DNA from: Deltaproteobacteria bacterium
GTDB lineage: Bacteria > Desulfobacterota > DSM-4660 > Desulfatiglandales > HGW-15
Direction of reading: 5' to 3'
DNA: 64,000 bases
NCBI GenBank assembly: GCA_019310525.1
Contig: JAFDEE010000019.1
Location: 1-64,000 of the forward strand
Shown: piece after piece, positions 3,432 to 48,865 of the stretch
How the letters are laid out: each line of letters opens with the position of its first letter
How positions within the stretch are numbered: the stretch's first letter is position 1
Position numbers and translations under genes: made by a program
The notes under the pieces: generated by a model
Seen by the model: only the letters and a program-made list of their open reading frames with translations
Database searches by the model: none
Told to the model about the DNA's origin: nothing

Positions 3432-4055
3432 ATGGGAATCATTCTCGGAAGCGGCGGGTTCACCCGCTTCCAGGTAGACGGAGAGTTACCCGAAGGATAT
3501 CTGGAGACCCTTCAGGAGAAGATTGCACGGTATGCATTCCGGGGTCTTGGAGAAGACTCAGACGAAGAAAGGGCCACGGGATGGGTTCAGATCCTGGATA
3601 TGTTCGAGAATGATTTCACCGGGATGGATTATTTGAAAGAGCCCTGTATCGCCCTGGCCTGGAGGGTGGACGTGAAGCGTGTTCCCCCCATCGCCCTGAG
3701 TCACTACTGCCGCGAGGCGGAAAAGAAGATCATGGCCTCGGAAAAGGTCGAATATCTCCCCAAAAGGCGCATCCAGGAAATCAGGGAAGCAGTCCGGATC
3801 AAGCTTCTGAAGAGGGCTATTCCCGTTTCCAGGACCTATGACATGATCTGGAACCTTCAGACGGGCATTGTTTTTTTCGGGGGGACGAGTAACAAGCTTT
3901 GTGATGAGTTTGCCGAGTTTTTCTTGAAATGCTTCGGGTTCCCGCTCAAGACGGTCTTCCCTTACTCCATGGCCTGCCGGGTCCTTGAACAGGAAGAAAG
4001 GGATCCATCGTTGCTGGATGCCCTGGAATACTCCATTCGCCTGGGGGGTGAGTGA
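3432..4055 (+). CDS. rdgC: RdgC-like recombination-associated protein
   Basis: A 207-residue protein whose central block resembles RdgC: VKRVPPIALSHYCREAEKKI (the 'VPxxVVRRELEERV'-like helix), then LPKRRIQEIREAVRIKLLKRAIPVSR and a beta stretch ending VFFGGTSNKLCDEFAEFFLKCFG. RdgC is a DNA-binding ring protein that modulates RecA-dependent recombination. At 207 residues it is shorter than the ~300-residue proteobacterial enzyme, as in short delta-proteobacterial versions. The start has GGGAGG seven bases upstream. It overlaps the next gene by 4 bases (GTGA), so the two are translationally coupled. Both are bracketed by two direct copies of MITE A. The call is by pattern only. Confidence 0.7.
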   Translation: MGIILGSGGFTRFQVDGELPEGYLETLQEKIARYAFRGLGEDSDEERATGWVQILDMFENDFTGMDYLKEPCIALAWRVDVKRVPPIALSHYCREAEKKIMASEKVEYLPKRRIQEIREAVRIKLLKRAIPVSRTYDMIWNLQTGIVFFGGTSNKLCDEFAEFFLKCFGFPLKTVFPYSMACRVLEQEERDPSLLDALEYSIRLGGE

Positions 4056-4582
4056 GCATGCAGCTTCTTGAAAGGGTGAAGAAGGCCGGGTTCCTGGGTC
4101 GGGAATTCCTTGCCTGGCTCTGGTTTAGGAGCGAGACCAACGGCGGGAGATTCGATTTTGGAGAAGAAAAGACCCTGGATCTCTGGTTCGACAAAAAGAT
4201 CGTTCTTGAGTCTGAAGAAGAGGAGGGGGTGGAAAAGGTTGTCTGCACCGGAGATCATCCCCATTTAAAAGAGGCCCGTTACGCGCTAAAGGAGAACAAG
4301 GAGATCACGGAAGCAGGGATCAGGCTGGTCATCGGGGATAATGAGTGGTCCTTTGTCCTGGACTCCACTTGGCTGAATTTCAAAAACTTCAAGACCCCCA
4401 AGACAATGGCCGACAAGGGCGAGGACCCGGACGGCCTGTTTTACGAGAAGTTTTTCCTCGTGGAGCAAGCCGTTTCGGCAATCGACACCCTTTTCGCCGC
4501 CTTCGTCAAGCTCCGCACTTCCCCTGAGTGGGAAACAAGCGAACTCCCCGCCCTTATGGGATGGATAAAGGGAGGGAGATAG
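4052..4582 (+). CDS. Unknown protein coupled to rdgC
   Basis: A 176-residue acidic soluble protein with no family I recognise. It begins MQLLERVKKAGFLGREFLAWLWFRSE, has a basic/aromatic N-terminal helix, an acidic middle (ESEEEEG), and a C-terminal helical part (LVEQAVSAIDTLFAAFVKLR). It has no signal peptide or membrane span. GTG at 4052 overlaps the rdgC stop; an ATG at 4058 is an equally good start. The 4-base overlap and the shared flanking MITEs suggest that it works with the RdgC-like protein, perhaps supplying the part missing from the short RdgC, but this is inference. Confidence 0.75.
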   Translation: MSMQLLERVKKAGFLGREFLAWLWFRSETNGGRFDFGEEKTLDLWFDKKIVLESEEEEGVEKVVCTGDHPHLKEARYALKENKEITEAGIRLVIGDNEWSFVLDSTWLNFKNFKTPKTMADKGEDPDGLFYEKFFLVEQAVSAIDTLFAAFVKLRTSPEWETSELPALMGWIKGGR

Positions 4583-4591
4583 ACTTATTAA

Positions 4592-4846
4592 CCCAAATTA
4601 TGCGTGAACGCCTGTTCAAGAAAGGGTAAAAGAATTTTCCCGAAGCGGCCTATTTTGGCTCTGGAGCAGCCTGCCTGCCGCAGGCAGGGAGAGCGGAAGA
4701 GCCAAAATAGGCAGTGAGCGGAGCCATGGACGGCGTAGCGAACGTAACGGAGGGAACATCCTTTTACCCTTCACCTATCGGGTGCTGTCAGAATACTTTA
4801 ACATATTGTAATAAAGAGCAATTTTATCATTAACGCATAGTTTGGG
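4592..4846 (+). mobile_element. MITE family A, second complete copy
   Basis: A 255-bp copy in the same orientation as 2786-3060, with CCCAAATTATGCGTGAA at the left and a slightly decayed right end (TTAACGCATAGTTTGGG). It is flanked by ATTAA at 4587-4591 and 4847-4851, a second independent 5-bp target duplication. The interior palindrome (CCTATTTTGGCTCT / AGAGCCAAAATAGG) is preserved. It starts 9 bp after the stop codon of the gene coupled to rdgC. Confidence 0.88.
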
Positions 4847-4900
4847 ATTAAAGGCCAGCAGCCCCCAATTCATCCCTCCCCGTTGTCACCCGTCATTACA

Positions 4901-5923
4901 TCATCCTTTACCGCCGCCGTGTCCACCACCATGACCGCCCCCATGACCACCGCCATGGCCGCCGCTGTTACCACCTCCGTGCCCTCCGCCATGGCCACTG
5001 CCGCCTTTTCCGGAGCCGTTGCCGGAACTATTGCCGGTGGAGGTCGTGGTGTCGGTGCTTGTCCCATGGCTTTTCCCATGACCGAATGAGTTTCCGGAGT
5101 GTCCTTTGAAGGGTGTATGTCCGAGACCGAGGGCCTTTCCATTAGAACCCCGGGCGCTTACCCCGTTCTGTCCAAAGGCCGGTCCGGACTGGTGATTCCT
5201 CTCCGTAGACATTGCAACTTCGGCATCTCCCTCAAGACTTTCTTCTGTTCCTCGGAAGGAGGCGAGATGGTGGTTCGTGGCTCCCTTCGTATGGCCCAGC
5301 CCCAGGAGTCCCGGATGTACCCCGAGTTCATGGGCGATCTGACCCCAACCCATTCCGGACTCCCTCATCTCTGCGATATCTGAAAGGGCTACCCCAACAG
5401 CTTCAGCGAAGGCCTCTTCCGCTGCAGCGTGTGCCTCATCGTAGGCCTCCTGAGCTGCTGCGATCTCGTCAGGGTCTCCAGAGGCTATAGCCGCATTCAG
5501 GGCTTCCTCGGCCTCCGCCTCAGCGTCCATGGCACTCTGGATTTCGGGGGAGGTGACATCCACGGCGGCCATTGCGAGATTTGCGGCATGGGCGGCCTGG
5601 GCCGGGTTGGTGAAGGCCGGAGTCTCTTGATCGATGTCGGAGTCTCCTGCAGAGGCCTCCTCGGTATCTCCAAACGAATCATCACCTTCCACCGTAGAGG
5701 TGCTCGCAGGGTCTTCTCCTGAAGGGACATCGGAGGCCGGGTTTTCCTCCGGGGATGAAGAATCGACCTGACTCACTATTTCACCCTGCTGATCGGTCGA
5801 TTCGGAAACCACGGTCTCATCCTCGGCCCAGGAATGGAACGGGAACAATGGTGTCGCCGTAAAAACCATGATGATTCCCAGAAAAAAGAACAACCTGTGA
5901 AATTCAACAAACGTCCGTTTCAT
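4901..5923 (-). CDS. Secreted Ala/Glu-rich protein with Gly/His repeat tail
   Basis: A 340-residue exported protein. The start (ATG 5923, GGAGGTG six bases upstream) gives a classic signal peptide: basic KRTFVEFHR, a long hydrophobic core, then HSWAED as the likely cleavage site. The mature part has an acidic Ser/Glu region, an alanine-rich probable coiled coil (DAEAEAEEALNAAIASGDPDE...), a compact motif IAEMRESGMGWGQIAHELGVHPG and then a low-complexity tail. The tail ends in repeated GGHGG units with many histidines, typical of metal-binding or surface-associated segments. The GMGWGQIAHELGVHPG motif looks like a conserved module rather than low-complexity sequence. No enzyme motif is visible. 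The role is unknown; metal binding by the tail is an inference. Confidence 0.8.
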   Translation of the reverse strand: MKRTFVEFHRLFFFLGIIMVFTATPLFPFHSWAEDETVVSESTDQQGEIVSQVDSSSPEENPASDVPSGEDPASTSTVEGDDSFGDTEEASAGDSDIDQETPAFTNPAQAAHAANLAMAAVDVTSPEIQSAMDAEAEAEEALNAAIASGDPDEIAAAQEAYDEAHAAAEEAFAEAVGVALSDIAEMRESGMGWGQIAHELGVHPGLLGLGHTKGATNHHLASFRGTEESLEGDAEVAMSTERNHQSGPAFGQNGVSARGSNGKALGLGHTPFKGHSGNSFGHGKSHGTSTDTTTSTGNSSGNGSGKGGSGHGGGHGGGNSGGHGGGHGGGHGGGHGGGKG

Positions 5924-5977
5924 TTTTACACCTCCATAAACCCCATAACGGGGCCTGCAATTCATGGAAAAAGGCGA

Positions 5978-7042
5978 TCATCTCCTGGAAGCGCCTTTTT
6001 TACCGGATGAAGCCTTTCGCTTTACGGGCAGGGCCGTAAAGAACTGTATGCTTTCGGGTTCTTTGAAAACTCTTCTCCCGATCCGAATGGTTTCAGGAAC
6101 ATCAAACCAGCTTACCATAAGACGATCCGGACTGATCCCCGGAAAATGATGAACCAGATACTTTTTGATGCTCTTGGCGCGCCTCTCCGCAAGTTCCTTG
6201 TTATTCAACTGGTAGGCTACGATATGAAGGCCGATTCCATGATTGTTGTTCATGATTTCGCCCAGGAGATTCAGAGAAGGCGTGGACCTTGATTGAATCT
6301 TTGCTGAAAAGGGGACGAACCGGATCTTTTGGATCGTAACCGTTCGGCAGCCTATAATGAAATTTCGATAGTCAAAATCTCCAAGCGCGTTAAGATAAGA
6401 TACGGCCTGCCGAGCCTTGGGTCCTGATGGATAGTAAGCGAGAAACTGCTTCCATGCGGTTTTTTCTTCCGGGGTCCTTTTAAGTCGCTTGAGAATCAGC
6501 CCGCGGTTGAACAGGGCCGAGGGGTTTTCGGGCCGGAGGTCGATTGCCCTTGAATATATTTTGAGGGCCTTGTGATATTCTCTTTTTTCAAAATAATTGT
6601 GTCCCAAATAAGTAAGGGCCTGTACGTGTCTTGGATTGAGCCGGAGGGCCTTTTCATAACATTGCCTCTCAAGGTCAGCCCTTTTGAGGGCTGAGGCGGC
6701 TACGCCGAGCCAAAAATGGTAATCCGGTTCGTCGGATTTCAGGTGCGCGGCCTTGTCCAGGTGTTCAAAGGCTTTCCGGGGATGTTCCAGTGCCAGGAGG
6801 TACCTCCCCAGGAAGTAATGAACCTCGGCGCTCTCAGGGTTGGTTTCCACCTCGCGCTGAAAGACCTTGAGCCCCTCGTGGTATTTTTTCTTTTCCAGGT
6901 AATAGTTGCCCTTTACGTTGTGTTTGATGCTGTTAAACCCGTCCCGAATGGCGTGCCGTACGGTGCATCCTGCCCCAAGGGTCAAAAGGACACACAGGCC
7001 GGGGATAACCACCCAGGTTCGAATGGAATGAAAAGCTTTCAA
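5978..7042 (-). CDS. TPR lipoprotein with OmpA-like C-terminal domain
   Basis: A 354-residue predicted lipoprotein. The N-terminus carries a lipobox (VVIPGLCVLLTLGAGC). Several tetratricopeptide repeats follow (for example AEVHYFLGRYLLALEHPRKAFEHLDKAAHL and VQALTYLGHNYFEKREYHKALKIYSRAIDL). The last ~110 residues resemble an OmpA-type peptidoglycan-binding fold (IVAYQLNNKELAERRAKSIKKYLVHHFPGISPDRLMVSWFDV). I chose the TTG at 7042 because it puts the lipobox at a normal distance from the start; the frame stays open to 7240 with an ATG there, but that would give an implausible 66-residue leader. It probably sits in the outer membrane and organises other envelope proteins. It lies just upstream of the secreted Gly/His protein on the same strand. 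Confidence 0.75.
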   Translation of the reverse strand: MKAFHSIRTWVVIPGLCVLLTLGAGCTVRHAIRDGFNSIKHNVKGNYYLEKKKYHEGLKVFQREVETNPESAEVHYFLGRYLLALEHPRKAFEHLDKAAHLKSDEPDYHFWLGVAASALKRADLERQCYEKALRLNPRHVQALTYLGHNYFEKREYHKALKIYSRAIDLRPENPSALFNRGLILKRLKRTPEEKTAWKQFLAYYPSGPKARQAVSYLNALGDFDYRNFIIGCRTVTIQKIRFVPFSAKIQSRSTPSLNLLGEIMNNNHGIGLHIVAYQLNNKELAERRAKSIKKYLVHHFPGISPDRLMVSWFDVPETIRIGRRVFKEPESIQFFTALPVKRKASSGKKGASRR

Positions 7043-7825
7043 GATCCTTATCCCTGCAAACAGAATAATTGCCGTTCCATAAGGGAAATGAAGCCCCACG
7101 GCCAAGCCCGTGGTCTTCTGCGAAGGCGGATAAAAGCCCCTCTCTGAGGCGGGCTGACTCAGCTTCAGCCCAATGGTCGTCGAGATACCCTCTTGTGTCA
7201 AGAGACTTGCAAAATCATTGCCTGTTTCATCCCAGCCCATGATCCTATTTATGATTTTTAGACGCTACATCCTTGAGGTATACTTGAAAGATGCACCTCA
7301 ACACATTGAAAATAATAAAGAATAATGTGTAAATTTGGTTTCGAATATCGCTTTTGATGCCTTCAGCTGAGACTGTGGGGACAGGTATCCTTTGGGGCCG
7401 GGATTGCATACCATAAAAGACTCTTGTGTTTAAATTTCCATACACTGTTTTTTGTTTGTCTTCGCAAGGGATACCCTGTAGCTTGCTACAGGGAGGAATG
7501 GTGGGGCGAACGCCCAAAGCGCTTTTACGCAAAGGCGGGTTTGGTTTCGTCGCAATTCCACTCAAAACACCCTGCTGCTTGCAGCGGGGAGCTTCATTTC
7601 CAGCCGATCCCTAAGCAGGGGAGAGTAAGGAGGTATGCGCCGGGAGGGGCATGGGACGGTAAGAACGGAAAGGAGACGTTTTACGTCCTATAGATTCCCC
7701 GAGTCTATGGGCCTTCATTCCAGAGCGCCGTCTGCTGGATTCCGGAAAGGAATTCATGTATCTTTCCTTCTGGGATGCCCGGAAGTCCTCCCGGGCCCCG
7801 AACACGGAAAAAATCGTGGAGTCCC
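7043..7825. other. Non-coding stretch between the lipoprotein and recC
   Basis: No gene is supported here. The part at 7459-7605 is a copy of repeat family D. The rest (7043-7458 and 7606-7825) shows no frame with family resemblance. Promoters for recC and for the lipoprotein presumably lie here, but none stands out. Confidence 0.5.
7459..7605 (+). repeat. Repeat family D (two-hairpin element)
   Basis: About 150 bp that match the reverse complement of 28190-28335. It opens with the perfect hairpin CCCTGTAGCTTGCTACAGGG and closes near a second one (CTGCTGCTTGCAGCGGGG). Between them lies a conserved stretch containing GCGCTTTTACGCAAAGGCGG. The paired hairpins and dispersed copies suggest a REP-like or MITE-like element. 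I could not define a target duplication. Confidence 0.75.
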
Positions 7826-10800
7826 ATGAACGGAGTCAGGATTTTTACTAGTAACCGGTTGGAAAACCTGGCGGAGCTTCTGGCTGAGGTATTGCGGGAA
7901 CCCTTGTCCTCGCCCTTTTCAGGAGAGATCGTCCTTGTCCAGAGCAAGGGTATGGAACGTTGGGTCTCCATGCAGTTGGCACGGTATCATGGGATCTGCG
8001 CCAATATTCGCTTCCCTTTCCCAAACGCCTTTGTTCGGGAAATGTTCAGAAGGGTGATCCCGGACCTCCCGGATCGCTCTCCCTTCGACCCGGATATCCT
8101 TAGCTGGCGGGTCATGAAATGCCTGCCGTCTCTGGCCGGCCGACCGGCTTTTCGCGGGCTTCGCAGGTACTTTGGAAAGGGGACCGAACCCCTCAGAATC
8201 TTCCAGCTTTCGGAGAGGATCGCGGACCTGTTTGATCAGTACCTGGTCTTTCGTCCCGACATGATAGAGCGGTGGGAACGGGGGCATGGCACCCACTGGC
8301 AGGCCGTGCTTTGGCGGGAACTGGTGAAGGGGAACGAGGGACGGCACAGGGCCGCTCTCGCCAAAGCGTTCCACGAGCGGCTCCGGGGGGGCGGGGACCG
8401 GACTTTCGAAGGACTCCCGGAAAGGGTCTCGGTTTTCGGGATCTCTTCCCTTCCTGAATTCCACATGCAGGTGCTGGCCTCCCTTTCAAGGACCATGGAG
8501 GTCAACCTATTTCTGATGAATCCATGCCGGGAGTACTGGGGGGACATCCTTTCCGACTGGGAAATGGAAAGGAGGAGGATGCGTATTCCCAAGGGGGTTG
8601 TTTCCGAGGCGGATCTTCACCTTGAAAAGGGAAACAGCCTGCTCGCCTCCCTGGGCACCGTGGGCCGCGAATTTTTTGACCTCCTCCAGGACCTTAACGG
8701 CGCGGAGAACACCGATTTCGTGGATCCCGGCCGGGAAAGCCTTCTTGCCTGTATCCAGTCCGACATCCTCAACCTCCGGGAGAGGGGAAGGGAAGGTGAA
8801 GAAAAAACCGTCCTTTCCCCGGAGGATCGTTCCCTTCGAATTCATTCCTGCCATGGTCCCATGAGGGAGATGGAAGTATTGCGGGACCAACTCCTGGACC
8901 TTTTCGAGAGGGATCCCGAACTATCCCCGGGAGATATCCTTGTAATGACCCCTGATATCGAGGCCTATGCCCCGTATATCCAGGCGGTCTTCGATGTGCC
9001 GAAGACAGATCCCACCTGGATTCCCTTCAGCATCTCGGATCGAAGCATGCGGTGCGAGAGCGGCATCATTGAGACCTTCATGTCCATCCTGGATCTCCGG
9101 GGCGGCCGATACGAAGCTTCCCGGGTTTTGGCGATCCTGGAGAACCCGGCCGTTCAGGGCAGGTTCGGTTTGACGGAAGAGGACCTCCGGCTCCTCCGGC
9201 GCTGGGTGAGGGATACGGGTATCCGCTGGGGAATCGACGAGGGGACGAGGGTGTCGCAGGGGCTTCCAGGGTTCCGGGACAATACCTGGGAGGCGGGACT
9301 GGAACGGCTCCTCCTCGGGTATGCCCTTCCGGGCGGCGAAGAGAAGATGTTCCACGGCATTCTACCGTACGACCTGGTGGAAGGGGAACAGGCAGGGGTG
9401 CTGGGGGCCCTTGTTGCCTTCTCAAGGGAACTCTTCGACCGTGTTCAAGACCTGGGACGGCCCAGGACTCCACGGGAGTGGTCAAGGACCTTGCTGGAAC
9501 TCCTGGATGTCTTTTTTATCGAAGGTGAAGGCTTTGATTCGGAACTCCAGGCCGTGCGGCGGATCCTCCGGGAATTTGGAGAATCGAGCTGCTTTGAGGG
9601 ATTTGAGTACGATGAGCCGGTGGATATCCCCCTCATCCGATGGAAGCTGGGCCATGTCTTCAAGAAACAGGGGTTCGGGAAGGGTTTTCTTGCTGGCGGT
9701 GTCACCTTTTGCGCCATGCTCCCCATGCGGAGCATTCCTTTTAAGGTGATATGCCTCGTGGGCATGAACGGAGATGCTTACCCCAGGCAACAGCGCCCCC
9801 TGGGGTTTGATCTCATGGCCAGGCATCCCCGCCGGGGAGATCGATCCCGCCGGGAGGACGACCGCTACCTCTTTCTGGAAGCCCTGCTTTCAGCCCGTAA
9901 AACCCTTTACATCAGCTATGTCGGCCAGGATATCCGTGACAATACCCCCCTTCCTCCATCCGTACTGGTCAACGAACTGCTGGAGTACGTGGAGCAAGGC
10001 TTTGAGGTCCCGGGCTCCTGTATCAGAGATCATCTCGTGATTCGGCACCGCCTTCAGGCCTTCAGCCCCGCCTATTTTGAGAAAGGTTCACGCCTGTTCA
10101 GTTATTCCCGGGAACATTGCATGGCCGCCAGGGCCCTTCTCACAACCCCCCTAAACCCTCCGGGATTTTTATCCGGGGAGTTGCCCGAGCCGGACAGTAC
10201 CTGGAAAACGGTGGAACTCGGCGATCTTTGTCGATTCTTCGCCAATCCCGCCGGATACCTGCTGGAAAAGCGGCTCGGTGTACGGCTGGAATATCGGAGC
10301 GTGACCCTGGAGGACAAGGAAATTTTTGAACTTCGGGGGCTTGATCGTTACCGGCTGGAACAGGACCTCTTGGAAAAAGGCCTGAAGGGGGAAAACCTCC
10401 TTGAGAGGCTTCCAAGGGTGAGGGCCGCGGGCCTTTTGCCCCATGGAAGCGTTGGTGAAACGGTTTTCAAGAGAACCGCGGGCGCGGTGGAGCGTTTCGT
10501 TCGGTGGATTCGTCCCTTCATGGGTGACGAACCGAGCCCCCCCCTGGATGTGGATCTGGTCCTGAACGGGTTTCGGATCACCGGTTCCATTCGGAACATC
10601 TACCCCCGAAGGCTTCTCCACTTTCGCCATGCCAGGCTTCGGGCAAAGGATTTTCTTGGGCTCTGGGTGAACCATGTGCTGCTTAACATCCTGGCCGGAG
10701 AAGACTGTCCCAAGACCAGCATGCTCGCGGGCGTCCGGACCGACAGAAAAGACGGGATCCATTGGGTGGCATGGGAATATGCGCCCCTGCGGAAGGGAGA

Positions 10801-11128
10801 GGCCGTTCTCACCCGTCTCCTGGAGATCTACTGGGAGGGGCTTCGCCGACCGATTCCATTTTTCCCCGAATCTTCCTTTCGGTACGGGGAAGAAATGTTG
10901 GATAAGAAAAACGACCGCATGAAGGCCCTGGAAGCAGCTTCCAAAAAATGGGAGGGGGGAGAGCGTCAGAGGGGTGAAAAAGAAGATGCAAGCTACCGGA
11001 TTTGCTTTAGGGGTGAGAGTCCTCTGGACGTGGAGTTTGAGAGACTGACCCGGGAAATCCTGGAACCTCTCTTTTCCCATAGAAGGAAGATGGAGATTTC
11101 CATTGCAGGCAAGGAAATGGGAATTTAA
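7826..11128 (+). CDS. recC: Exodeoxyribonuclease V gamma subunit RecC
   Basis: An 1100-residue RecC homologue, near the usual ~1120. It opens with the family signature MNGVRIFTSNRLENLAELLAEVLREPLSSPFSGEIVLVQSKGMERWVSMQLA and continues with the FPNAFV and SEADLHLEKGNSLLASLG regions typical of RecC. The ATG at 7826 is preferred over an in-frame ATG at 7775 because it yields the conserved N-terminus and has GGAG six bases upstream. RecC recognises Chi and splits the duplex within the RecBCD helicase-nuclease that resects double-strand breaks. The gene is followed by recB (17-bp gap) and recD (1-bp gap), so all three should be one transcript. Confidence 0.95.
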   Translation: MNGVRIFTSNRLENLAELLAEVLREPLSSPFSGEIVLVQSKGMERWVSMQLARYHGICANIRFPFPNAFVREMFRRVIPDLPDRSPFDPDILSWRVMKCLPSLAGRPAFRGLRRYFGKGTEPLRIFQLSERIADLFDQYLVFRPDMIERWERGHGTHWQAVLWRELVKGNEGRHRAALAKAFHERLRGGGDRTFEGLPERVSVFGISSLPEFHMQVLASLSRTMEVNLFLMNPCREYWGDILSDWEMERRRMRIPKGVVSEADLHLEKGNSLLASLGTVGREFFDLLQDLNGAENTDFVDPGRESLLACIQSDILNLRERGREGEEKTVLSPEDRSLRIHSCHGPMREMEVLRDQLLDLFERDPELSPGDILVMTPDIEAYAPYIQAVFDVPKTDPTWIPFSISDRSMRCESGIIETFMSILDLRGGRYEASRVLAILENPAVQGRFGLTEEDLRLLRRWVRDTGIRWGIDEGTRVSQGLPGFRDNTWEAGLERLLLGYALPGGEEKMFHGILPYDLVEGEQAGVLGALVAFSRELFDRVQDLGRPRTPREWSRTLLELLDVFFIEGEGFDSELQAVRRILREFGESSCFEGFEYDEPVDIPLIRWKLGHVFKKQGFGKGFLAGGVTFCAMLPMRSIPFKVICLVGMNGDAYPRQQRPLGFDLMARHPRRGDRSRREDDRYLFLEALLSARKTLYISYVGQDIRDNTPLPPSVLVNELLEYVEQGFEVPGSCIRDHLVIRHRLQAFSPAYFEKGSRLFSYSREHCMAARALLTTPLNPPGFLSGELPEPDSTWKTVELGDLCRFFANPAGYLLEKRLGVRLEYRSVTLEDKEIFELRGLDRYRLEQDLLEKGLKGENLLERLPRVRAAGLLPHGSVGETVFKRTAGAVERFVRWIRPFMGDEPSPPLDVDLVLNGFRITGSIRNIYPRRLLHFRHARLRAKDFLGLWVNHVLLNILAGEDCPKTSMLAGVRTDRKDGIHWVAWEYAPLRKGEAVLTRLLEIYWEGLRRPIPFFPESSFRYGEEMLDKKNDRMKALEAASKKWEGGERQRGEKEDASYRICFRGESPLDVEFERLTREILEPLFSHRRKMEISIAGKEMGI

Positions 11129-11145
11129 GAACGGAGACATCCCGC

Positions 11146-14100
11146 GTGAGAGATTTCAAGCCCTTTGATATTCTCCAGTGTCCTCTCGAGGGGACCCATC
11201 TGATCGAGGCGAGCGCCGGGACGGGAAAGACCTATACCATCGCGGGGCTCTTCCTGCGGCTTGTTCTTGAAAAAGGCCTTTCGGTCCAGCAGGTCCTGGT
11301 GGTGACCTTCACAGAGGCCGCAACGGCGGAGTTGAAGGAAAAGATAAGGAGTCGGCTTCGGGACGCCCTGTCGGCCTTGATCCAGGGGGGCGGGAGTGTG
11401 AGGGACGCTTTTATCAAGGCAATGGCCGACAAGTACCATGGACGGCCGGAGGCGCCGATCATGCTCAGGCAGGCCCTCAGGGATTTCGACAAGGCCGCCA
11501 TATTCACCATCCATGGATTTTGCAGGCGGATGCTTCAGGAAAACGCCTTTGAAAGCGGAACCCTTTTTGACACCGAACTTATAACCGACCAGGAAGATCT
11601 CAAGCGTGAAGTCGTTGAGGATTTCTGGCGAAGGCATTTCTATGGCGCATCTCCCCTTTTTGTATCCTATGCCCTTGGGAATGGTTTTTCCCCGGAAAAT
11701 CTCGCTTCCCTCATTTCCAACTGGGTTTCCCTGCCCTACGTGAGGATTATCCCCCGAATCGAGGTGCCGGACACGGCCCGGGAAGAAAAGGCCTTTAAGG
11801 CCGCCTTCACCAGGGCAAAAGAGATCTGGGGATCTTCCCGGGACGAGGTTTGGGAGATCCTTCTCCATGATCAAGGCCTCAACCGGGTGAAGTACGGCGG
11901 TAAAAGGGTCCGGGACCTGCTTGATCAAATGGACGCCTGGCTCTCCTTCGGCCCGGATCCCTTTATCTTCAAGGGTTTTGAAAAGTTCACAACGGAGGAG
12001 CTTGAGCGATCGGTCAAGAGGGGATATTCGCCGCCGAGACATCCCTTTTTCGATGCGGCCTCGCGATTGAGGATCGCCCGGCAGAGATTGGAGGACGGGT
12101 TCCAAAAGCGGCTGATCGCACTGAAGTCCGAGCTGTTTTCCTTCGTGAAAGAAGAACTGGAGAGAAGGAAGGCCCAGAGGAACGTCCAGTTCTTCGATGA
12201 CCTGCTGAGCAGCCTGTCAAGGGCTCTCCAGGGGGAAGCGGGAAACCGTTTCGCCCGCTTCCTGTCCCTCAAGTTCAAGACCGCCCTCATCGACGAATTC
12301 CAGGACACGGATCCCGTTCAGTACGATATCTTCAAGAAGATCTTCTCCTTTCCGGGAAATGGTCTTTTCCTCATCGGGGATCCCAAGCAGGCCATCTACG
12401 GGTTCAGGGGGGCGGATATCTTTACATACATGAAGGCGTCTCAGGAGGCAGCCTCACGATATACCCTGGAAAGAAACTGGCGGTCCGACCCGAAACTTGT
12501 AAAGGCCGTGAATACCCTCTTCGGAAGCTCGAAGCGGCCCTTTGTCTTTGAAACTATTCGTTTCCAGGAGATTTCCCCTGCCGAGCGGGAAGATCCCGAA
12601 CTCCTGAGCCTGGAAGGAGGCCGCCGACCACCTTTACAGGTCTGGTTCCTGAACCCGGTAACAGGGGAGGAAGCGAGGAAGCCCCTTTCCAAGGAGAAGG
12701 CCCGCGATTGGATCGCAAGGGCGGTCGCCGCCGAGATTTCAAGACTCCTCAGGCTGGGAAGGGAAGGGAAGGCCCTCATCGGCTCCCGTCCACTCGGAGA
12801 AAGGGACATCGCCGTCCTTGTCAGGCGGAACAGTGAAGCCCGGTTGGTAAAAGGTGCCTTGTCCCGACTGGGAATCCCGTCCGTGCTCTACGCCGGAGGC
12901 AACCTCTTTGAGACCCGGGAGGCCGAGGAGGTGGAGCGGGTGCTCACCGCCGTGGCGGATCCAAACAGTGAAGGACACCTGCGAGCCGCCCTCCTGACGG
13001 AAATTTTGGGCCTCAATGGGGATACCCTTGAAAGGATGGGGGAAGAAAACCTGGAAGAATGGATGGTAAGGTTCAGGGAATACCGCCTTGAGTGGAGTGA
13101 AAAAGGCTTCATGCGCATGTTCCGGCATCTTTTGATCCAGAACGGGGTGCTGGGACGTCTCATGGCTTATGAAGACGGGGAGCGCCGGATGACCAACCTG
13201 TTCCACCTCGCCGAAGTACTCCATCAGGCCGAAATGGAGAAGAAACTCCGGGCAAGCGGACTCCTGAAGTGGCTTAAGGAGCGGCGGGAAGGCGGCGGGT
13301 CGGACCGGGAAGAACACCCCTTACGTCTTGAAAGCGACGAAAACGCCGTCAAACTGGTGACCATCCACAAGAGCAAAGGACTCGAATACCCCGTGGTCTT
13401 CTGTCCCTTTCAATGGGATGGGAGCACGATAAAGAAAACCGCCGGGGCCTTGACCTTCCACGATCCCAGCCGACCTTTTGAATTTACATTGGATCTCGGT
13501 TCCGACCGGGCGGCCGACAACCGTGCTGCCGCTGAGAAGGAGGTCCTCGCCGAGAACCTGAGGCTCCTTTATGTGGCCGTCACCCGGGCCCGGTACCGGT
13601 GCTACCTTGTGTGGGGAGCCTTCAACGAGGCGGAGACCTCGGCCCCGGCCTATCTTTTCCATTTCAAGAAGAAAACGGATGAAGGGGACCCCGTTGGGGC
13701 GTTAAAGGCCGAGTTTCCCAAACTGGTGGGCGGACCCCTCCGAGAAGACCTTGAAACGCTTGAAAAAAAGTCAGACGGTAGTATCTGCCTTTTCGACGTA
13801 CCGGAAGATGTTCAGGGAGAACGTGTGAGCGAGGAGATGAGGACGGAACGGCCCCTGGAGTGCCGATCTTTTTCAGGAAGAATCGAACGCCGGTGGGGGC
13901 TTACCAGTTTTTCATCCATGGTCTCGGGCCGGGCATACGGGGAGGATTCCCAGGACCGGGATCCGGTAAAGGAAACGACTCCGGATAGAGAGGAGAAAAA
14001 GCGAGCAAAAGAAGGGGAAGAGAAAAAAGACATTTTCTCATTTCCTGCCGGAGCCCGATCTGGAACATTCTTCCATGATCTACTCGAACACCTTGACTAC

Positions 14101-40300: not shown

Positions 40301-40468
40301 TTTATATTTTCCTGTTCTCAGGACTCTTGTTCGTGAAAAAACCTGAAGGAGAAATTTGACTTTTTAACTTGAAAAAGCTAGAAAACAAAAATATCTTGCC
40401 TGAGTTTATGGATCCCTTAGTTTGCGGAATATCACCTTTTCGTTACCCGGATCCGGAAATCTTAAATA

Positions 40469-40611
40469 GTGTCCATCCATAAATAGGCAATTTTGTTCAA
40501 GGTCAAGGAAGGCGAAGATTTTAACCACAGGAATACATTGAAGTATTTCGAGGATTAAAATCTGAGCCTGACGCAAGAGATTGGGCAAAAGGGCCATTTA
40601 TGGATGGGCAC
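40469..40611 (+). mobile_element. Repeat family B, intact copy with TAAATA duplication
   Basis: A 143-bp element with ends GTGTCCATCCATAAAT and ATTTATGGATGGGCAC, flanked by TAAATA on both sides (40463-40468 and 40612-40617). Internal inverted arms AGATTTTAA and TTAAAATCT surround a second short arm pair (AATAC/GTATT). It ends 41 bp before the selenoprotein start codon, so it may affect that gene's leader. Confidence 0.9.
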
Positions 40612-40652
40612 TAAATAAACAGCAGGAAAAGCGAAAGCAAAGGAGGTCTTGA

Positions 40653-41954
40653 ATGGATCCAATAACCTTAAACCCCAAAGAAAGCAAGCTCCGGGTGGCA
40701 CCGGAGTGGGCTGATGTCTGCTTCACTTGCGGAACCTGTGCTGGAGGTTGCCCGGTAACCGGCGTTGACGGCCTTGATCCAAGAAAGGCCGTTCGGATGG
40801 CGGCCCTGGGCTTGGATCAGGAATTGATCGATTCGCGGTTTCCCTGGGTATGTACACTCTGCGGCCGCTGTGAGTATGCCTGCCCCCAGGGGGTGGAGAT
40901 CTTAAAAATGATGCGCAGGGCCCGTACCCTGCGCGAGCGGGACAAAGTCCCAGGCCCCATCCACAAGGGCGTTGTTATGGACCTGGAAAAGGGAAACAAC
41001 CTGGGGATCCCCAAGGACGATTTTCTTTTTCTTTTGGCTGACTTGGCCAAAGAGATGGAGGACGAGGGATTTCCGGGATTTTACGTGCCGGTGGACAAAA
41101 AGGGGGCCAATATCCTCGTCACCATCAATTCAAAGGAACCTTTCGGCGAGCCGGATGATATGAAGTTCTGGTGGCGCATTTTTTACTGCGCCAAGGAGGA
41201 CTGGACGGTTCCTTCCGAAAACTGGGAAGGCGTCAACTGGGGGCTTTTCTCCGGCGACGACGAGGCAATGAAGACCTTTGTCGGGAGAATCGTTGATCAT
41301 TTGGAGCGATTGGAGTGTAAAACCTTACTCTTGCCTGAATGAGGGCACGCCTATTTTGCGACCAGGCTTGGTCTGCAAACGTGGTTTCCTGAAGTATTTG
41401 ACAAGTACCGTGTTGTTTCCGTTCATGACCTTCTCAAGGAGTATATCGAAACGGGCAGAATCAAGGTTGATAAAAGCATCCACACGGAACTGACCACTAT
41501 TCACGATCCTTGCAATTATGGCAGAAAGGGGCAGAAGGCCTTTGGTCATGGCTATTTTGAGGAACCCCGCTGGATCACGCAGCAGTGCTGTGAAAATTTC
41601 GTGGAGATGTATCCCAATCGGATGAACAATTATTGTTGCGGGGGGGGCGGCGGAGCATGGGCCATGCCCTACGACCAGGAAAGGATTTACTACGGCCGCG
41701 TCAAGGCAAAACAGATCATGGAAACCGGGGCAAAGCTGGTGATCGCCCCATGCCACAACTGCCGCGACCAGATCATGAAATCCCTGACCAAGGAGTACGA
41801 TCTGGGCATTGAAACCAAGTACCTCTGGGAGCTCGTGGCCGATTCCCTGGTGGTTGAACCTTGGAGCGAAGAGGAGATTGAGGCGGCCCACAAGTTGCGG
41901 GACGCGCAGTATGAAAGGGATGGCGTGGAATTGGATGAGGAAGACTGGGAATAA
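40653..41954 (+). CDS. HdrD/TmcB-like iron-sulfur protein with selenocysteine (Sec230)
   Basis: A predicted 433-residue protein read through an in-frame TGA at 41340-41342. The N-terminal ferredoxin has two [4Fe-4S] motifs, CFTCGTCAGGCP (from Cys23) and CTLCGRCEYACP (from Cys67). The C-terminal part is a heterodisulfide-reductase-type CCG domain: LLLPE(U)GHAYFATR, IHDPCNYGRK, NNYCCGGGGGAWAM, then APCHNC. In related proteins the first motif is PECGHA, so the TGA falls exactly where a cluster-ligand Cys is expected. A hairpin follows the TGA at the distance of a bacterial SECIS. A rho-independent terminator (41981-42016) lies right after the true stop. It probably reduces or oxidises a disulfide or passes electrons between soluble and membrane partners. 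Confidence 0.9.
41343..41383 (+). promoter_or_regulatory. Candidate SECIS hairpin of the HdrD-like selenoprotein
   Basis: Just after the TGA, TTTGCGACCA (41355-41364) pairs with TGGTC-T-GCAAA (41369-41379), leaving a GGCT loop and one bulged U on the 3' side. A lower helix CACG/CGTG (41346-41349 with 41380-41383) extends it. The loop G is 23 bases after the TGA. A short apical stem, GG-starting loop and bulged U are features of SelB-bound bacterial SECIS elements. Confidence 0.7.
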
Positions 41955-41980: not shown

Positions 41981-42016
41981 AAAAAGCCCCGGGCCTATCA
42001 TTACCGGGGCTTTTTT
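41981..42016 (+). terminator. Rho-independent terminator, likely bidirectional
   Basis: AAAAAGCCCCGG and CCGGGGCTTTTTT form a strong GC stem with A-run and U-run tails around an 11-base loop. It is 26 bp after the selenoprotein stop and 92 bp from the end of the convergent ACT-domain gene, so it can serve both. Confidence 0.9.
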
Positions 42017-42107: not shown

Positions 42108-43130
42108 TCAATCCTTCCTTACCAGGGCGGGGACTTCGAAGCAACTTTGTATCGCTTCAATTGCGTCCGCCAATTTATCGGAATCAACGACCGCCTTAAT
42201 GGACGCAATGGAACAATTGAGCCCTAGGAGCATCACTCCCTTGGCCTCAAGGGCGGTGAGTAGTTCGCTTGCAATTCCGTAACGGTCCCCGAAATGGGGC
42301 CCGGTCATGGATAAGCCGGCCACCGGATACAGGATTTCGACCGGGAAGGAAGAGGTAAATTTACGAGTGATATCCCCTGAGGAAGTCCCCTGCCTCCTGG
42401 AGAAGCACAGGGTGATGATATTTGATCCCTTCTCGGGGGGGACAAGGCGTGTGCCGAGAAAACTGAGATAAGTGCCGGTCCCGGAAAGTGACTTCAGGAG
42501 GGATGCGAACCAGCGGAGGTCTCCTGCGCCGATCTTTACCCGGCACATTTCCTGGCCATCGCGGTATCTGATCCCGTATACCTTGGGTTTGCTCTCCTGG
42601 TAGGAGGCGACGACTTCCCGGTAAAGGCTCTCTTTGCCTTTCTGGGCGAGGTTCCAATCTTGAGGTGTCCTATAGGCGCTGAATTGGAATGTTTTGAAGA
42701 GTCCGGTATTCGCTTTTTCCAATGCGTGGTTATGAAGCACTGCAGATACGGCAGCGGGCGAATTGGCTATTCCCAGAGGTTCCAGGCCCTCCCTTCCAAG
42801 GGCCTCCAGGAACAGTCCCACGATTTCCGGATCTCCCCTGTATGGAAAGATAGAAAGGATGATGCTCTCGGCCCTGTTGCATATCTCGGTCCCGGGAAAT
42901 TCCCGAACAATCCGAGAAAGGGCAGGGGCATCAGCATTGCTCACCGCTACGTTCAGGCTCCAGCGTTTATCTTCGGGCTGGCAGGAGAAAAAGGGAAGGT
43001 TGATCTTCTCCTCGGCGATCCTACGGCAAAACGCTGCCGGAAAGCCAAAGGAATCTCCGTCCGAAATCAAGGAGAACCAGATCACACCTTTCAGCACCTT
43101 GAACCCGCCGAGTTTTACTGGGGCCGCCAT
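42108..43130 (-). CDS. ACT-domain protein, aspartokinase-regulator-like
   Basis: A 340-residue protein with two regions like the ACT domains of aspartokinase: LEALGREGLEPLGIANSPAAVSAVLHNHALEKA and MTGPHFGDRYGIASELLTALEAKGVMLLGLNCSIASIKAVVDSDKLADAIEAIQSCFE. No kinase catalytic domain is present. ACT domains bind amino acids and control enzymes or regulators. It follows a lone receiver-domain gene by 24 bp on the same strand and comes last in the long minus-strand redox block. The start ATG 43130 has GGAG 11 bases upstream, rather far. Function is unknown; ligand sensing is inferred. Confidence 0.7.
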   Translation of the reverse strand: MAAPVKLGGFKVLKGVIWFSLISDGDSFGFPAAFCRRIAEEKINLPFFSCQPEDKRWSLNVAVSNADAPALSRIVREFPGTEICNRAESIILSIFPYRGDPEIVGLFLEALGREGLEPLGIANSPAAVSAVLHNHALEKANTGLFKTFQFSAYRTPQDWNLAQKGKESLYREVVASYQESKPKVYGIRYRDGQEMCRVKIGAGDLRWFASLLKSLSGTGTYLSFLGTRLVPPEKGSNIITLCFSRRQGTSSGDITRKFTSSFPVEILYPVAGLSMTGPHFGDRYGIASELLTALEAKGVMLLGLNCSIASIKAVVDSDKLADAIEAIQSCFEVPALVRKD

Positions 43131-43638: not shown

Positions 43639-44571
43639 TTATATGATTTGAGGCCTGGGGTAAAGTCCGCTGCGTTCAACGATTTCCGGGACCTTTTCTT
43701 CCCATTCGATGGCCATGATGTGGAAACCTCTCACACCATCGATTTCCTTGAGACGCTGGATTGATTCTATGCATATCTTCAGCCCCTCCTCGGGTTGCTT
43801 CTCTTTGGCTACCCCGGCCATCCTCTTTACCACTTCATCGGGTACATCCATTCCGGGGACTCGGTTTTTCATGTACTTGGCCATCCCCGCGGACTTCAAA
43901 GGGGTCACACCTGCAAGGATATAAACTTTTTCGTGAAGGCCGCGGTCCCTTACTTGTTTCATCCATTGCTCGAATTTGTCGAGATTATATATGCATTGAG
44001 TTTGGATGAATTCAGCCCCGGCAGCAACCTTTTTGGCAAGGCGGTGGACCCGGATCTCAAAAGGATCTGCAAAGGGATTGGCCGCGGCGCCTACGAACAT
44101 TGCCGGTGGACCTTCGATTTCGTCACCCCCCAGAAACCTTCCTTCATCTCTCATGAGCCTCACGGTCTGGATCAACTGCATCGAATCGATGTCAAAGACG
44201 TTTTGGCCCTTGGGCTGGTCTCCGAAGACCTGGTGGTCACCCGAAAGACAAAGAATATTCCGGATGCCGAATGAAGCGGCACCCAGGATATCGCTTTGAA
44301 GGGCAATGCGATTCCTGTCCCGGACGACCATCTGGAGAACCGGATCGATTCCCATGAGTTTCAGATGGATGCAGGCTGCAAGACTGCAGAGCCGGGTCAC
44401 TGATGTCTGGTTGTCCGTGATGTTGATGGCGTCTACGTGGTTTCTGATCTTTTCAGCTTTTTTCTTGATAACGTCCGGGTCGCTTCCCCTCGGGGGCCCG
44501 CATTCCGAAGTCACGGCGAGATGCCCTGCCGCTAGAATCCTCTCCAGCTTGCTTTCTGTCTTTGTACTCAT
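43639..44571 (-). CDS. metF: Methylenetetrahydrofolate reductase MetF, copy 1
   Basis: A 310-residue (beta/alpha)8 flavoprotein. Signature stretches include VTSECGPPRGSDPD (catalytic Glu region), VDAINITDNQTSVTRL, VRDRNRIALQSDILGAASFGIRNILCLSGDH, FVGAAANPFADPFE and IQTQCIYNLDKFEQWM. It interconverts methylene-THF and methyl-THF. Its ATG overlaps the metV stop by 4 bases (ATGA). In the arrangement hdrA-mvhD-metV-metF it is the substrate-facing end of a likely electron-bifurcating complex as described for Moorella. It has a close paralogue at 54342-55277 and a distant one at 48894-49769. Confidence 0.92.
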   Translation of the reverse strand: MSTKTESKLERILAAGHLAVTSECGPPRGSDPDVIKKKAEKIRNHVDAINITDNQTSVTRLCSLAACIHLKLMGIDPVLQMVVRDRNRIALQSDILGAASFGIRNILCLSGDHQVFGDQPKGQNVFDIDSMQLIQTVRLMRDEGRFLGGDEIEGPPAMFVGAAANPFADPFEIRVHRLAKKVAAGAEFIQTQCIYNLDKFEQWMKQVRDRGLHEKVYILAGVTPLKSAGMAKYMKNRVPGMDVPDEVVKRMAGVAKEKQPEEGLKICIESIQRLKEIDGVRGFHIMAIEWEEKVPEIVERSGLYPRPQII

Positions 44572-45236
44572 AGGCTCACATCCTCCCTGACGACTTTTCG
44601 AGGGCCACCGGCCCGATCAGTGGACCAATCCTTTACCGGAAGGAGGGTCTCGTAATCATCGAAACGCCCGAGTTCCTTCAACCGATCGATGATCAATTGC
44701 CAGGCGCAATCGATGTCTTTACTGATTTCACACTTCCCTTTGGTTGAACCGCCGCAGGGCCCATTCAGAAGACGCTTGGCGCACCTTGAAATTGGGCAGA
44801 TTCCAGCCGTGAGTCCAAGGATACACTGCCCACAGCCCTGACAGCGCTCACTCCAGACGCCTCTTTGTTCGGTCACGCCCATGAAACAGGTGTTGACTCC
44901 GGGAAAAACCGGGATGCCGAAATACTTCTCCGCCATGAATTGGACCCCGACACCGCAAGCCAGGGAGACCACCGCATCGTGATTTCCGATCTCCTCCCGG
45001 ATCTCTTCCAGGTATTCATGATCGCACTGGCGTTCGAGGGTAACCTCTTCGATTTTCACCTCTCTGCCCTGATTCATGAAATACATGCGGAGGGCAGAGG
45101 CAAGGACGGCGACTTCTCTTTTTCCTCCGGCCTCGCAAACGGTGACGCATTCGTTACATCCCGCGATGAGGATTCTTTCATGGTCCTTGATCGCCTCGAA
45201 AATTTCCTCGATCGGTTTTTTCTCGGCCACAATCAT
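44568..45236 (-). CDS. metV: MetV: zinc/iron-sulfur partner of MetF, copy 1
   Basis: A 222-residue cysteine-rich protein of the MetV (methylene-THF reductase C-terminal) family. It has AGCNECVTVCEAGGKREV near the N-terminus, DAVVSLACGVGVQFMAEKY, and a Cys cluster SERCQGCGQCILGLTAGICPISRCAKRLLNGPCGG near residues 135-180. MetV is required for MetF activity and links it to HdrA-type electron carriers. The start MIVAEKKPIEEIFEAIK (ATG 45236) matches that of the second copy, so I rejected the longer frame to 45269. It overlaps metF and lies 153 bp after mvhD. Confidence 0.9.
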   Translation of the reverse strand: MIVAEKKPIEEIFEAIKDHERILIAGCNECVTVCEAGGKREVAVLASALRMYFMNQGREVKIEEVTLERQCDHEYLEEIREEIGNHDAVVSLACGVGVQFMAEKYFGIPVFPGVNTCFMGVTEQRGVWSERCQGCGQCILGLTAGICPISRCAKRLLNGPCGGSTKGKCEISKDIDCAWQLIIDRLKELGRFDDYETLLPVKDWSTDRAGGPRKVVREDVSL

Positions 45237-45389
45237 GGGGAACAACCTCGCTTTCCAGATCCTTTCCAAGAGGATCCGTGATAAGGGGACCGGCTTTCGC
45301 CCCCGGTTAATGGTGATGAGCCCGACCCAACAGGTCTAAAACCTGATGGTTTTCTGCTGGCCCTGGGATCGATGAGCAGGCAGGATGCT

Positions 45390-45821
45390 CTAAGCCGCCG
45401 CCTTTTCCCTCGCCGTCTTTACAGGATTGGGGCCCAGGGAGGTGATCAATTCGTGCATCTCCCGCGTGATATCCACGAACCGTGGAGCTTCGCTCGAAGA
45501 GAGATTGTACATTTTGACCCTCTCCCCATCTACGCCGACGGTATCGAGGATATGCCGGGCCTGCTCCACCCTTTTCCGCGCCCTCAAATTGCCGCTGGTG
45601 AAATGGCACTCTCCCTCCCTGCAGCCCACGACATAAACACCGTCCACTCCCTTCTCAAATGCCCTCAGGATGTGGATCAAATCCACCTTCCCTGTGCAGG
45701 GAACGCTCACGATCCGGATACTGCTCGGGTACTGCAAACGCATGGAACCTGCCAGGTCCGCAGCGCTGTAACCTCAGAACTGGCAGCAAAAAGCCACGAT
45801 GATGGGTTCAAACCGCTCCAT
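45390..45821 (-). CDS. mvhD: MvhD-like selenoprotein (Sec16), copy 1
   Basis: A 143-residue electron-carrier subunit of the MvhD/FlpD/VhuD family. The start is [15 protein letters not shown](U)GYSAADLAGSMRLQYP, with the in-frame TGA at 45774-45776 where other members have the third Cys (FCCNWCSYGGADLAG pattern). Later ligands are in VVGCREGECHFTSGN. The ATG shares one base with the hdrA stop (TAATG) and follows GGAGG, so translation is coupled. MvhD carries a [2Fe-2S] cluster that passes electrons to HdrA. Selenocysteine at this site is known in methanogen VhuD. The ORF without the readthrough would start at 45743 and lose the first cluster motif. Confidence 0.9.
45744..45773 (-). promoter_or_regulatory. 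Candidate SECIS hairpin of mvhD copy 1
   Basis: On the minus strand, GGACCT and AGG-T-TCC pair around a GGC loop with one bulged U, 15-30 bases after the TGA. The identical 16-base hairpin occurs at the same distance in mvhD copy 2, and its loop and bulge resemble the candidate at 41343-41383. Confidence 0.6.
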
Positions 45822-48800
45822 TACATCACCTCCTCAAGAAGGGCGTCCAGTTTGCTCATGAGCTGATCATCTTCATACCAGTTCAGCTGGATCACCTTTG
45901 CGGGACACTCCGCCGCGCATGTGCCGCAACCGTGGCAGAGGGCCGCATCGATTTCACTAACCCCGTCCCTATTGATCCTCGGGACCCCGTAAGGGCATAC
46001 CCGAACGCATATGAGACAGGAGGCACAGTGCTCCTGGTCAACCTTTGCCGTGACGGCCGATAGCAGGATCTCTCCCTGGGAAAGGAATCTGGCCGCCCGG
46101 GATGCTGCCGCCATGGCCTGGGAAATGGATTCGGAGATCAGCTTGGGGGAATGGGCCGTTCCGCATACGTAAATCCCTTCATCGGCCATGTCCACGGGGC
46201 GCAATTTGACGTGGGCCTCCATGAGGTAGCCGTCACGGGTCCTTCCCAGCTTGAGAATGGAGGCGAGTTCTTCCGTATCTTCCGCACGCATTCCTGCGCT
46301 GAGAGCAAGAAGATCCGCATTAACCTCCACCTTTCTACCCAGGATCGGGTCATCAAAGGAAACGAGGATTCCTTCCTCTCCGGGTTCCACGATGGGAGGA
46401 TTCTCCTTGGAATAGCGAAAGAAAAGAACGCCCCGTTCCCTTGACTCTCTGTAATAGTCCTCGAGGATGCCGTACGTTCGTATATCCCGGTAAAGGATGA
46501 TTACTTCCGCTTCAGGATTTAGTTCCTTGATGTGGAGGGCATTCTTGACGGCGGTCTGACAGCAGACACGGGAACAGTTGGGGTACTCGTCAGTTCTTGA
46601 ACCCACGCACTGGATCATGACCACGCGATGAAGGTCATCGGCTCCCCTATCATCAAGGCGCTTTCCAAGCTCGATCTGGGTCACAACCCTTGGATCCTCA
46701 CCGTAATGGAATTCCCGGGGCCGGTATTCCCTGGCCCCGGTGGCCATGATGAGCACCCCGTGGTCGATCTTTCTTTCGTACATGCCAGGTCCGACGATGA
46801 TTTCCGTGGTGAAATTTCCCTTGAAACCGCTGAAACCTACCACCAGGGACTCCAACAACACCTGGATCTTTGGGTGTCGCTCGACCCTATCGACAAGTTC
46901 CAACAGGTGGTCCTGGATGTGTGCACCCTCAATGGTGCGAGTTAGTTCCCTGGCCAGGCCGCCAAGATGCGCTTCCTTCTCGATGAGCGCCACTTCAAAA
47001 CCCTGATCCGCAAGACCCAGGGCTGCAGTCATGCCGGATATTCCTCCCCCAAGCACGAGTCCCCGCTGATTTACCTTAATGGTCTCAGATTCCAAGGGCC
47101 TGAGGAAAGAAGCCCTGGCCACGGACATCCTCACGAGGTCTTTTGCCTTGTCCGTAGCAGATTGAGAATCGCCCCCGTGAACCCACGAATCCTGGTTACG
47201 GATATTGGCCATTTCAAAGAGATACTTGTTCAATCCGCAGGCCTGGAGGGTTTCCTGAAAGAGAGGCTCGTGGGTCTTGGGAGAGCAAGCGGCGACAACG
47301 ATCCTGTTCAGGTTTTCTTCCTTGATTACTTCCTTCATCTTGTCTTGGGTATCCTGGGCGCAGGAAAAGAGGTTTTCCTCGACATGGACCACACCAGGAA
47401 GAGTAGAGGTATATTCCACTACGGCGGGAACATCCACAACACCGCCGATATTGGTTCCGCAATTGCACACGAATACTCCGATCCTTGGTTCTTCCTGGGA
47501 AACATCCCTTTCCATCGGGATCTCTCGTTTTTTCCAATCCCGGCCTCTGGCCTCTTTCAGGTCGATGCCCGCCGCACATGCCGCGGCGCTTGCCTCAACG
47601 ACGGAGGAAGGAATATCTTTGGGGCCCGAATAGGCGCCACAGGCATAGATGCCTGGAACGGAGGTTTCAACCGGAGAAAAAGAGTGTACAGAGCAGAAAT
47701 TATTGGGATCAAGGGTGATTCCCAGGCGCCTGGAAAGCTCCAGGGTCTCTTTTGGGAGTTCAAGACCAACCGATAAGACCACCATGTCAAAGAGATCCCT
47801 GTGAATGACACCTTCCCCGTCACAGTACTGGAGCAGAAGATCATCGCCGCCTTCGATCGGATCGATGGTGTGGATCCTGGATCGCACGAACCGGATGCCG
47901 TATTCTTCGACGGCTTTGTTGTAGTAAATTTCGTAGTCTTTCCCAAATGTCCTCATGTCCATGTAAAAAATAGTGATATCCGGGGATCCGGGCCCATGTT
48001 CCTTTGCGATGATGGCTTGTTTCACCGCATACATACAGCAGACGGCGGAGCAGTAACCATGATCACAGCGGTTCACGTCTCTGGATCCGACACACTGAAT
48101 CCAGGCGATGCGTTTGGGCTCTTTCTGATCAGACGGACGCCTGAGTTCACCAAGGTAAGGACCCGTAGGACTGAGGATCCTCTCGAATTCAAGGCTTGTC
48201 AGCACGTTGGGATAATCCCCATAATGGTAGGTTTCATACAAGGTTGGATCAAAGGTCTTGAATCCAGGAGCAAGGATGATGGATCCTACCCGGAGGGTCA
48301 TCTTTTCTTCCGTGTCATCAAAGTTTACGGCGCCAGTCGGGCAGAACTTCTCGCATGCCCTGCACTTGCCTTTTTGGAAGTAGATACAGGTCTGCCTGTC
48401 GATAAGGTACTTGAGGGGAACAGCCTGGGAATAGGGGACATAGATGGCTTTCCGCTTTGAGAGGTTCTCATTGTATTCGCTGTCTGCTTTTTTGGGACAC
48501 TTTTCTTCGCAGGTGCCGCACGCAATGCATTTTTCGGGGTCCACGTACCTGGGGTGTCTGAGGACATCGACTTCAAACCGTCCTCTACTTCCTCTGAGAC
48601 CCGTTATCTCGGAAAGGGTAAACAGCTGGATGTTCAAATGCCGGCCGACCTCGACCAGTTTGGGCGACAGAATTCACATGGAACAGTCATTGGTGGGAAA
48701 GGTCTTGTCCAGTTGGGACATTACGCCTCCAATGGAAGGGGCCTTTTCCACCAGGTAAACGAAGTAGCCGGAATCGGCAAGATCCAGGGCGGATTGCATC

Positions 48801-48865
48801 CCGGCAATGCCTCCTCCAAGAACCAGCACGGATCCGGATATTTCCACGGATTCATTCTTAGGCAT
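45821..48865 (-). CDS. hdrA: HdrA-type flavoprotein with selenocysteine (Sec64)
   Basis: A predicted 1014-residue double-HdrA protein read through a TGA at 48674-48676. It opens [29 protein letters not shown] (FAD) and FPTNDCSM(U)[15 protein letters not shown]. The paralogue at 56648-61093 has Cys at this exact position (DCSMCIISPKLVE), which supports Sec. Ferredoxin motifs are [12 protein letters not shown] (about 113-123) and, near the end, [12 protein letters not shown] and [13 protein letters not shown] second FAD motif ([21 protein letters not shown]) shows the HdrA duplication. It should bifurcate or confurcate electrons between MvhD, ferredoxin and MetVF. The downstream ATG at 48637 is rejected as a start because it drops the FAD site. 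It begins 28 bp after metF copy 3. Confidence 0.92.

Follow-up and report, generated by a model that had tools for sequence, protein, structure and literature searches.

The gene at positions 40653-41954 of a 64,000-nucleotide stretch of contig JAFDEE010000019.1 (the window), from a deltaproteobacterium of the phylum Desulfobacterota, probably encodes an HdrD-like iron-sulfur selenoprotein in which an in-frame UGA codon is read as selenocysteine (Sec) at residue 230. An earlier note, made from the letters of the window, had proposed such a selenoprotein, and this interpretation is supported by the conservation of the codon, by covariation in a downstream selenocysteine insertion sequence (SECIS) hairpin and by the Sec machinery of the genome. 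The reading frame had been described accurately. It runs from ATG 40653 to TAA 41952-41954 with TGA 41340-41342 as its single in-frame TGA, and residue 230 falls within PEUGHA. As had also been reported, CCGGGGG and CHNC are encoded 3' of the TGA, and the normal stop is followed by a terminator, a hairpin and T-run at 41981-42015 that a simple terminator scan overlooks because its loop is 11 nucleotides long. Standard annotation would split this gene into two.

Evidence for selenocysteine at codon 230

With one genome scanned per GTDB species, 80 orthologues were found outside the window genome, with identities of 63-91%, and the aligned codon is TGA in all of them. A phylum-wide search detected relatives in 166 of 395 genomes, with an in-frame TGA in nearly all of the top-scoring ones. 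In relatives that lack TGA, codon 230 is TGC or TGT and never that of another residue. Likewise, position 230 is only C or U in an alignment of 41 diverse homologues. A tree of 58 sequences implies six or more switches between Sec and Cys, and the window gene's own branch is entirely Sec. The genome encodes selA, selB and selD, which, like other genes lying elsewhere in the genome, were located by family searches, and a tRNA-Sec with anticodon UCA (selC) is present on the window's contig. The two checks that the earlier note had suggested, a search for the four sel genes and an inspection of homologues at this codon, are thus both in its favor: all four genes are present, and the codon is exclusively Cys or TGA. 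The selD gene itself carries an in-frame TGA (genome contig C6:427-1350, L113).

The hairpin that had been suspected 12 bases after the TGA, with a GG-starting loop and a bulged U, is indeed found there (start 41355, loop GGCU, bulged U at 41374). Because the window hairpin alone does not differ significantly from dinucleotide shuffles (z between -0.2 and -1.6), the case for a SECIS rests on a comparison across homologues. Measured against synonymous-codon nulls, the folding energy of the hairpin has a mean z of -2.66 in 85 distinct Sec orthologue sequences, 85% of which reach p < 0.05, whereas the mean z is -0.10 in Cys homologues (n = 16), with 0% at p < 0.05. At stem pair 24-31, none of 97 orthologues shows a mispair: 73 have C-G and 24 have T-A. 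In the set of 85 distinct downstream sequences, T-A comes with ACT, a synonymous Thr codon, in 21 and with AGT, Ser replacing Gly, in 21. This pair also changes six or more times on the tree. Where independent pairs were compared on well-supported branches, all five agree in direction, which is too small a number for p < 0.05 in a sign test. In the loop, Arg is encoded by AGG or CGG in 84 of 85 Sec genes, versus mostly CGC, CGT or CGA in Cys genes. A search of Rfam matched no family to the hairpin. Given the conserved TGA, the SECIS and the sel machinery, the gene is therefore taken to be that of a selenoprotein. SelB and tRNA-Sec, together with the SECIS hairpin, probably decode its UGA, as conservation, covariation and machinery indicate.

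The same observations bear on two other explanations of the TGA. That it is a nonsense mutation or an assembly error in a broken gene has nothing to recommend it except the stop codon itself, and it is refuted by the presence of TGA at the same codon in 80 of 80 independent orthologues, as well as by the intact and conserved downstream frame, the covarying SECIS and the complete Sec machinery; this explanation was rejected as extremely improbable. A genome-wide reassignment of TGA, which would make residue 230 Trp or Gly rather than Sec, could account for the in-frame TGA codons seen in several window genes, but TGA is the normal stop of several window genes (33316, 34696, 42108, 43155, 44568), tRNA-Sec(UCA), selA and selB are present, and relatives have Cys at the codon and never Trp or Gly. 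A variant code was rejected on these grounds, and its probability is negligible.

Architecture and family of the selenoprotein

Pfam recognizes a 4Fe-4S dicluster and a CCG domain in the protein, and HdrC chains and EtfD were matched in the PDB by profile. The AlphaFold2 model (pLDDT 92) has EtfD (9ojn, E 7e-14), HdrB and HdrC as its best fold matches in the PDB. Besides position 230 there are 13 invariant cysteines: eight are assigned to two cubane clusters, and the other five (287, 328, 329, 367, 370) make up one CCG site. Of CCG-1, only the Cys position at residue 230 is conserved; its other cysteines are gone. The earlier note had put the UGA in the CCG cluster motif; the position is of CCG type, but it belongs to a preceding, degenerate CCG domain and not to the intact motif. 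In alignments, the counterpart of position 230 in EtfD is C581, which ligates the linear Fe-S cluster, and in the genome's own DsrK (a genuine DsrK, 747 bits) it is the Cys of ECGH. An hhalign comparison of the family with four HdrBs was confined to the second CCG domain, leaving the region of residue 230 uncovered, and a PHROGs search gave no match.

The build is that of HdrD, with an HdrC dicluster and an HdrB CCG region in one chain. Canonical HdrD has two complete CCG motifs, as in methanogen HdrB/HdrD, and only CCG-2 is complete here; judged by its motifs, the gene product is HdrD-like in build and not a canonical HdrD. Fold and cluster motifs resemble those of methanogen HdrBC and of EtfD. 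HdrB, however, has two noncubane clusters, which cleave a disulfide (PMC13083937), whereas the window protein has one complete site and Sec at the other.

A selenoprotein family named “Fe-S oxidoreductase (GlpC)”, with a UGH motif, was reported in 2006 (PMC1794560), and a review (PMC13188914) lists an “Fe-S oxidoreductase-like protein, PTHR43551, UGH”. The window gene has the same UGH motif, Sec position and Desulfobacterota distribution, and Desulfogranum marinum (L068) has a homologue of 70% identity in the published glpC-hdrA-frhD-frhG order, followed by hdrA, mvhD/frhD and frhG in the sequence covered, which ends before frhA. By motif and by this gene order, the window gene belongs to the already known UGH selenoprotein family and is not of a new kind. 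Unlike the GlpC family operon, the window gene lies outside such an arrangement, and orthologues are also found beside Flx, HdrCB or MetFV genes. HdrD4 of Desulfobacterium autotrophicum HRM2 has been reported as an HdrCB-fusion selenoprotein (PMC2702500); compared by description only, it is likewise a soluble HdrCB-fusion selenoprotein of a sulfate reducer.

DsrK, TmcB and HmcF have two 4Fe-4S motifs and a CCG domain in common with the window protein, and the Cys of their ECGH is at the Sec position. The genome's DsrK, however, has Cys there, partner genes differ, and the NCBIfam scores of the window protein are far under the family cut-offs (TmcB 190/735, HmcF 225/750, DsrK 162/400 bits), so that identity with any of the three was rejected. 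The label “HdrD/TmcB-like” used previously therefore holds for fold and domains but not at the level of these families. The genome also encodes, on contig C51 (L164), a second UGH protein that is 34% identical and HmcF/TmcB-like; it scores 458 bits against HmcF, twice the score of the window protein, and occupies a separate tree branch. Its cluster (3602-12423) lies on one strand, and the genes before it there encode a membrane protein similar to TmcC, Flx-like proteins, MvhD and an HdrA that contains a TGA.

Gene neighborhood

Genes for HdrA, MvhD, Flx, MetFV, HdrB or FrhG lie within about 6 kb of the gene at 36 of the 80 orthologue loci. Four layouts recur: HdrA-MvhD-FlxC-FlxB-FlxA-gene, HycI-gene-HdrA-MvhD-FrhG, HdrA-HdrC-HdrB-gene, and HdrA-MvhD-MetV-MetF-response regulator-gene (L050, L054); the Flx names of the three Fe-S/flavin genes were assigned from gene order and domains only. 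Neighbors of these kinds suggest HdrA/MvhD complexes that contain Flx, hydrogenase or MetFV modules. In the window, an HdrA-MvhD-MetV-MetF-response regulator cluster adjoins the gene on the opposite strand (Table 1), and its HdrA-MvhD-MetV-MetF part, 1.7-7 kb away, is the nearest candidate partner in the window genome. MetFV-HdrBCA-MvhD complexes of acetogens (PMC9430772), and Flx-Hdr with DsrC of sulfate reducers (PMC10553843), have been proposed or partly shown. The window genome encodes DsrC and roughly seven HdrA proteins.

Table 1. Features of the selenoprotein gene and of the adjoining cluster (window coordinates).
Feature	Position	Strand	Description
Predicted selenoprotein gene	40653..41954	+	433 amino acids, Sec at residue 230; HdrC-like 4Fe-4S dicluster domain fused to HdrB-like CCG region (HdrD type; “Fe-S oxidoreductase/GlpC” UGH family)
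Ribosome-binding site AAGGAGGT	40640..40647	+	Read directly; 5 nucleotides 5' of ATG 40653
First 4Fe-4S motif	40719..40751	+	C23-x2-C26-x2-C29-x3-C33; invariant in 41 homologues
Second 4Fe-4S motif	40851..40883	+	C67-x2-C70-x2-C73-x3-C77; invariant in 41 homologues
UGA codon, predicted Sec230 (PEUGHA)	41340..41342	+	Conservation at the aligned codon in homologues
Putative bacterial SECIS hairpin	41355..41379	+	Stem UUUGCGACCA / UGGUC-U-GCAAA, loop GGCU, bulged U at 41374; begins 12 nucleotides past TGA
Intact CCG domain	41511..41762	+	C287, C328, C329, C367, C370, predicted noncubane [4Fe-4S] site; Pfam CCG; invariant in 41-row alignment; aligned to EtfD cluster D2 ligands
Rho-independent terminator	41981..42015	+	Strong hairpin and T-run, -20.6 kcal/mol, z -4.8
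MetF (methylene-tetrahydrofolate reductase)	43639..44571	-	PF02219; in neighboring Hdr cluster
MetV-like protein	44568..45269	-	PF12225
MvhD/VhuD (FlpD)	45390..45821	-	In-frame TGA 45774-45776, CQFUGYSAADLAG
HdrA, candidate electron-bifurcating partner	45821..48865	-	In-frame TGA 48674-48676, CSMU

Several further observations concern this neighborhood. The window codes for at least three selenoproteins, as MvhD (CQFU) and HdrA (CSMU) also have TGA in conserved redox motifs. At one locus (L006:1000-4431), a response-regulator receiver domain lies inside the HdrA of an HdrA-HdrC-HdrB-selenoprotein cluster. The response-regulator gene and the selenoprotein gene of the window are separated by a gene of 340 amino acids (42108-43130) that is also present at several orthologue loci and whose product has no Pfam or NCBIfam match. 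Upstream, a palindromic repeat of about 157 nucleotides (40462-40618, DNA fold z -7.5) ends 34 nucleotides 5' of the start codon. Its arms recur at window positions 98, 20088, 56508 and 56633, as well as inside and just 5' of the C51 cluster, and are often inverted pairs with roughly 110-170 nucleotides between them; a 15-nucleotide arm has 96 exact copies genome-wide, 48 per strand, and 0 in a reversed control. The repeat is a family resembling miniature inverted-repeat transposable elements (MITEs) or repetitive extragenic palindromic doublets forming hairpins (REPINs).

A possible role for Sec230

With considerable confidence, the protein can be proposed to be a Sec-containing HdrD-type electron-transfer subunit, for which we infer the following electron path, chemistry, substrate and partner. 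Electrons would leave an HdrA flavin by way of the two cubane clusters and reach a single noncubane [4Fe-4S] cluster, coordinated by C287, C328, C329, C367 and C370. Sec230 would occupy a ligand position of the other noncubane cluster of HdrB, now lost, and the remaining noncubane cluster and the selenocysteine would face each other, as far as the alignment predicts. The Sec230 selenolate would then attack a disulfide substrate, with the cluster providing electrons, followed by resolution of the Se-S intermediate. Likely substrates would be DsrC in its disulfide or trisulfide form, or a different disulfide, of a protein or a small molecule. In HdrA/MvhD complexes with Flx (NADH), hydrogenase or MetFV modules, the subunit may replace or supplement HdrBC. 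It is a more tentative suggestion that the selenolate substitutes for the lost second noncubane cluster of HdrB and that the HdrD-like enzyme replaces HdrBC in interchangeable HdrA complexes, perhaps including the adjoining MetFV-HdrA-MvhD methylene-tetrahydrofolate reductase.

A number of points weigh against this proposal. The correspondence of residue 230 to HdrB C78, and not C81, comes from a single hidden Markov model alignment to EtfD. At 44 of the 80 orthologue loci there is no Hdr-type neighbor in the sequence covered, in some cases owing to short contigs, and in the window genome the gene is alone on its strand, making its partner a guess. The relatives TmcB, HmcF and DsrK carry electrons from membrane complexes, and the direction of transfer and the substrate may differ accordingly. 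Finally, Sec230 could be a cluster ligand and not a nucleophile. It would then be a permanent selenolate ligand that tunes the potential of an Fe-S cluster, for example a remnant or linear cluster where CCG-1 used to be, or the noncubane cluster, to which it would be an additional ligand. Consistent with this possibility, H583 of EtfD is a ligand of noncubane cluster D2, and the Cys at 230 is invariant across relatives, DsrK included. HdrB C9, C41, C42 and one Cys of the CxxC are not kept in the family, however, making a full second cluster unlikely, and bacterial selenocysteines are usually found at redox-active positions, which counts against a permanent ligand; this alternative is doubtful.

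Still less probable is that the protein is the cytoplasmic part of a membrane redox complex, in the manner of TmcB or HmcF, instead of a soluble substitute for HdrBC. The top NCBIfam matches are HmcF, TmcB and DsrK, and the genome's own UGH paralogue on C51 comes after a TmcC-like membrane gene, as this role would predict. Nevertheless, the HmcF and TmcB scores of the window protein lie far under the cut-offs, it is the paralogue on its separate branch that scores twice as high against HmcF, and no TmcC-like gene adjoins the window gene or appears in the recurring orthologue layouts, although no direct search for one was made.

The family has been called “Fe-S oxidoreductase” since 2006, its relation to operon partners being unclear. 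The presence of Sec at a Cys common to DsrK and EtfD, together with HdrA, Flx, hydrogenase, HdrCB and MetFV neighbors, suggests a testable role for these selenoproteins in how sulfate reducers and syntrophs conserve energy through electron transfer.
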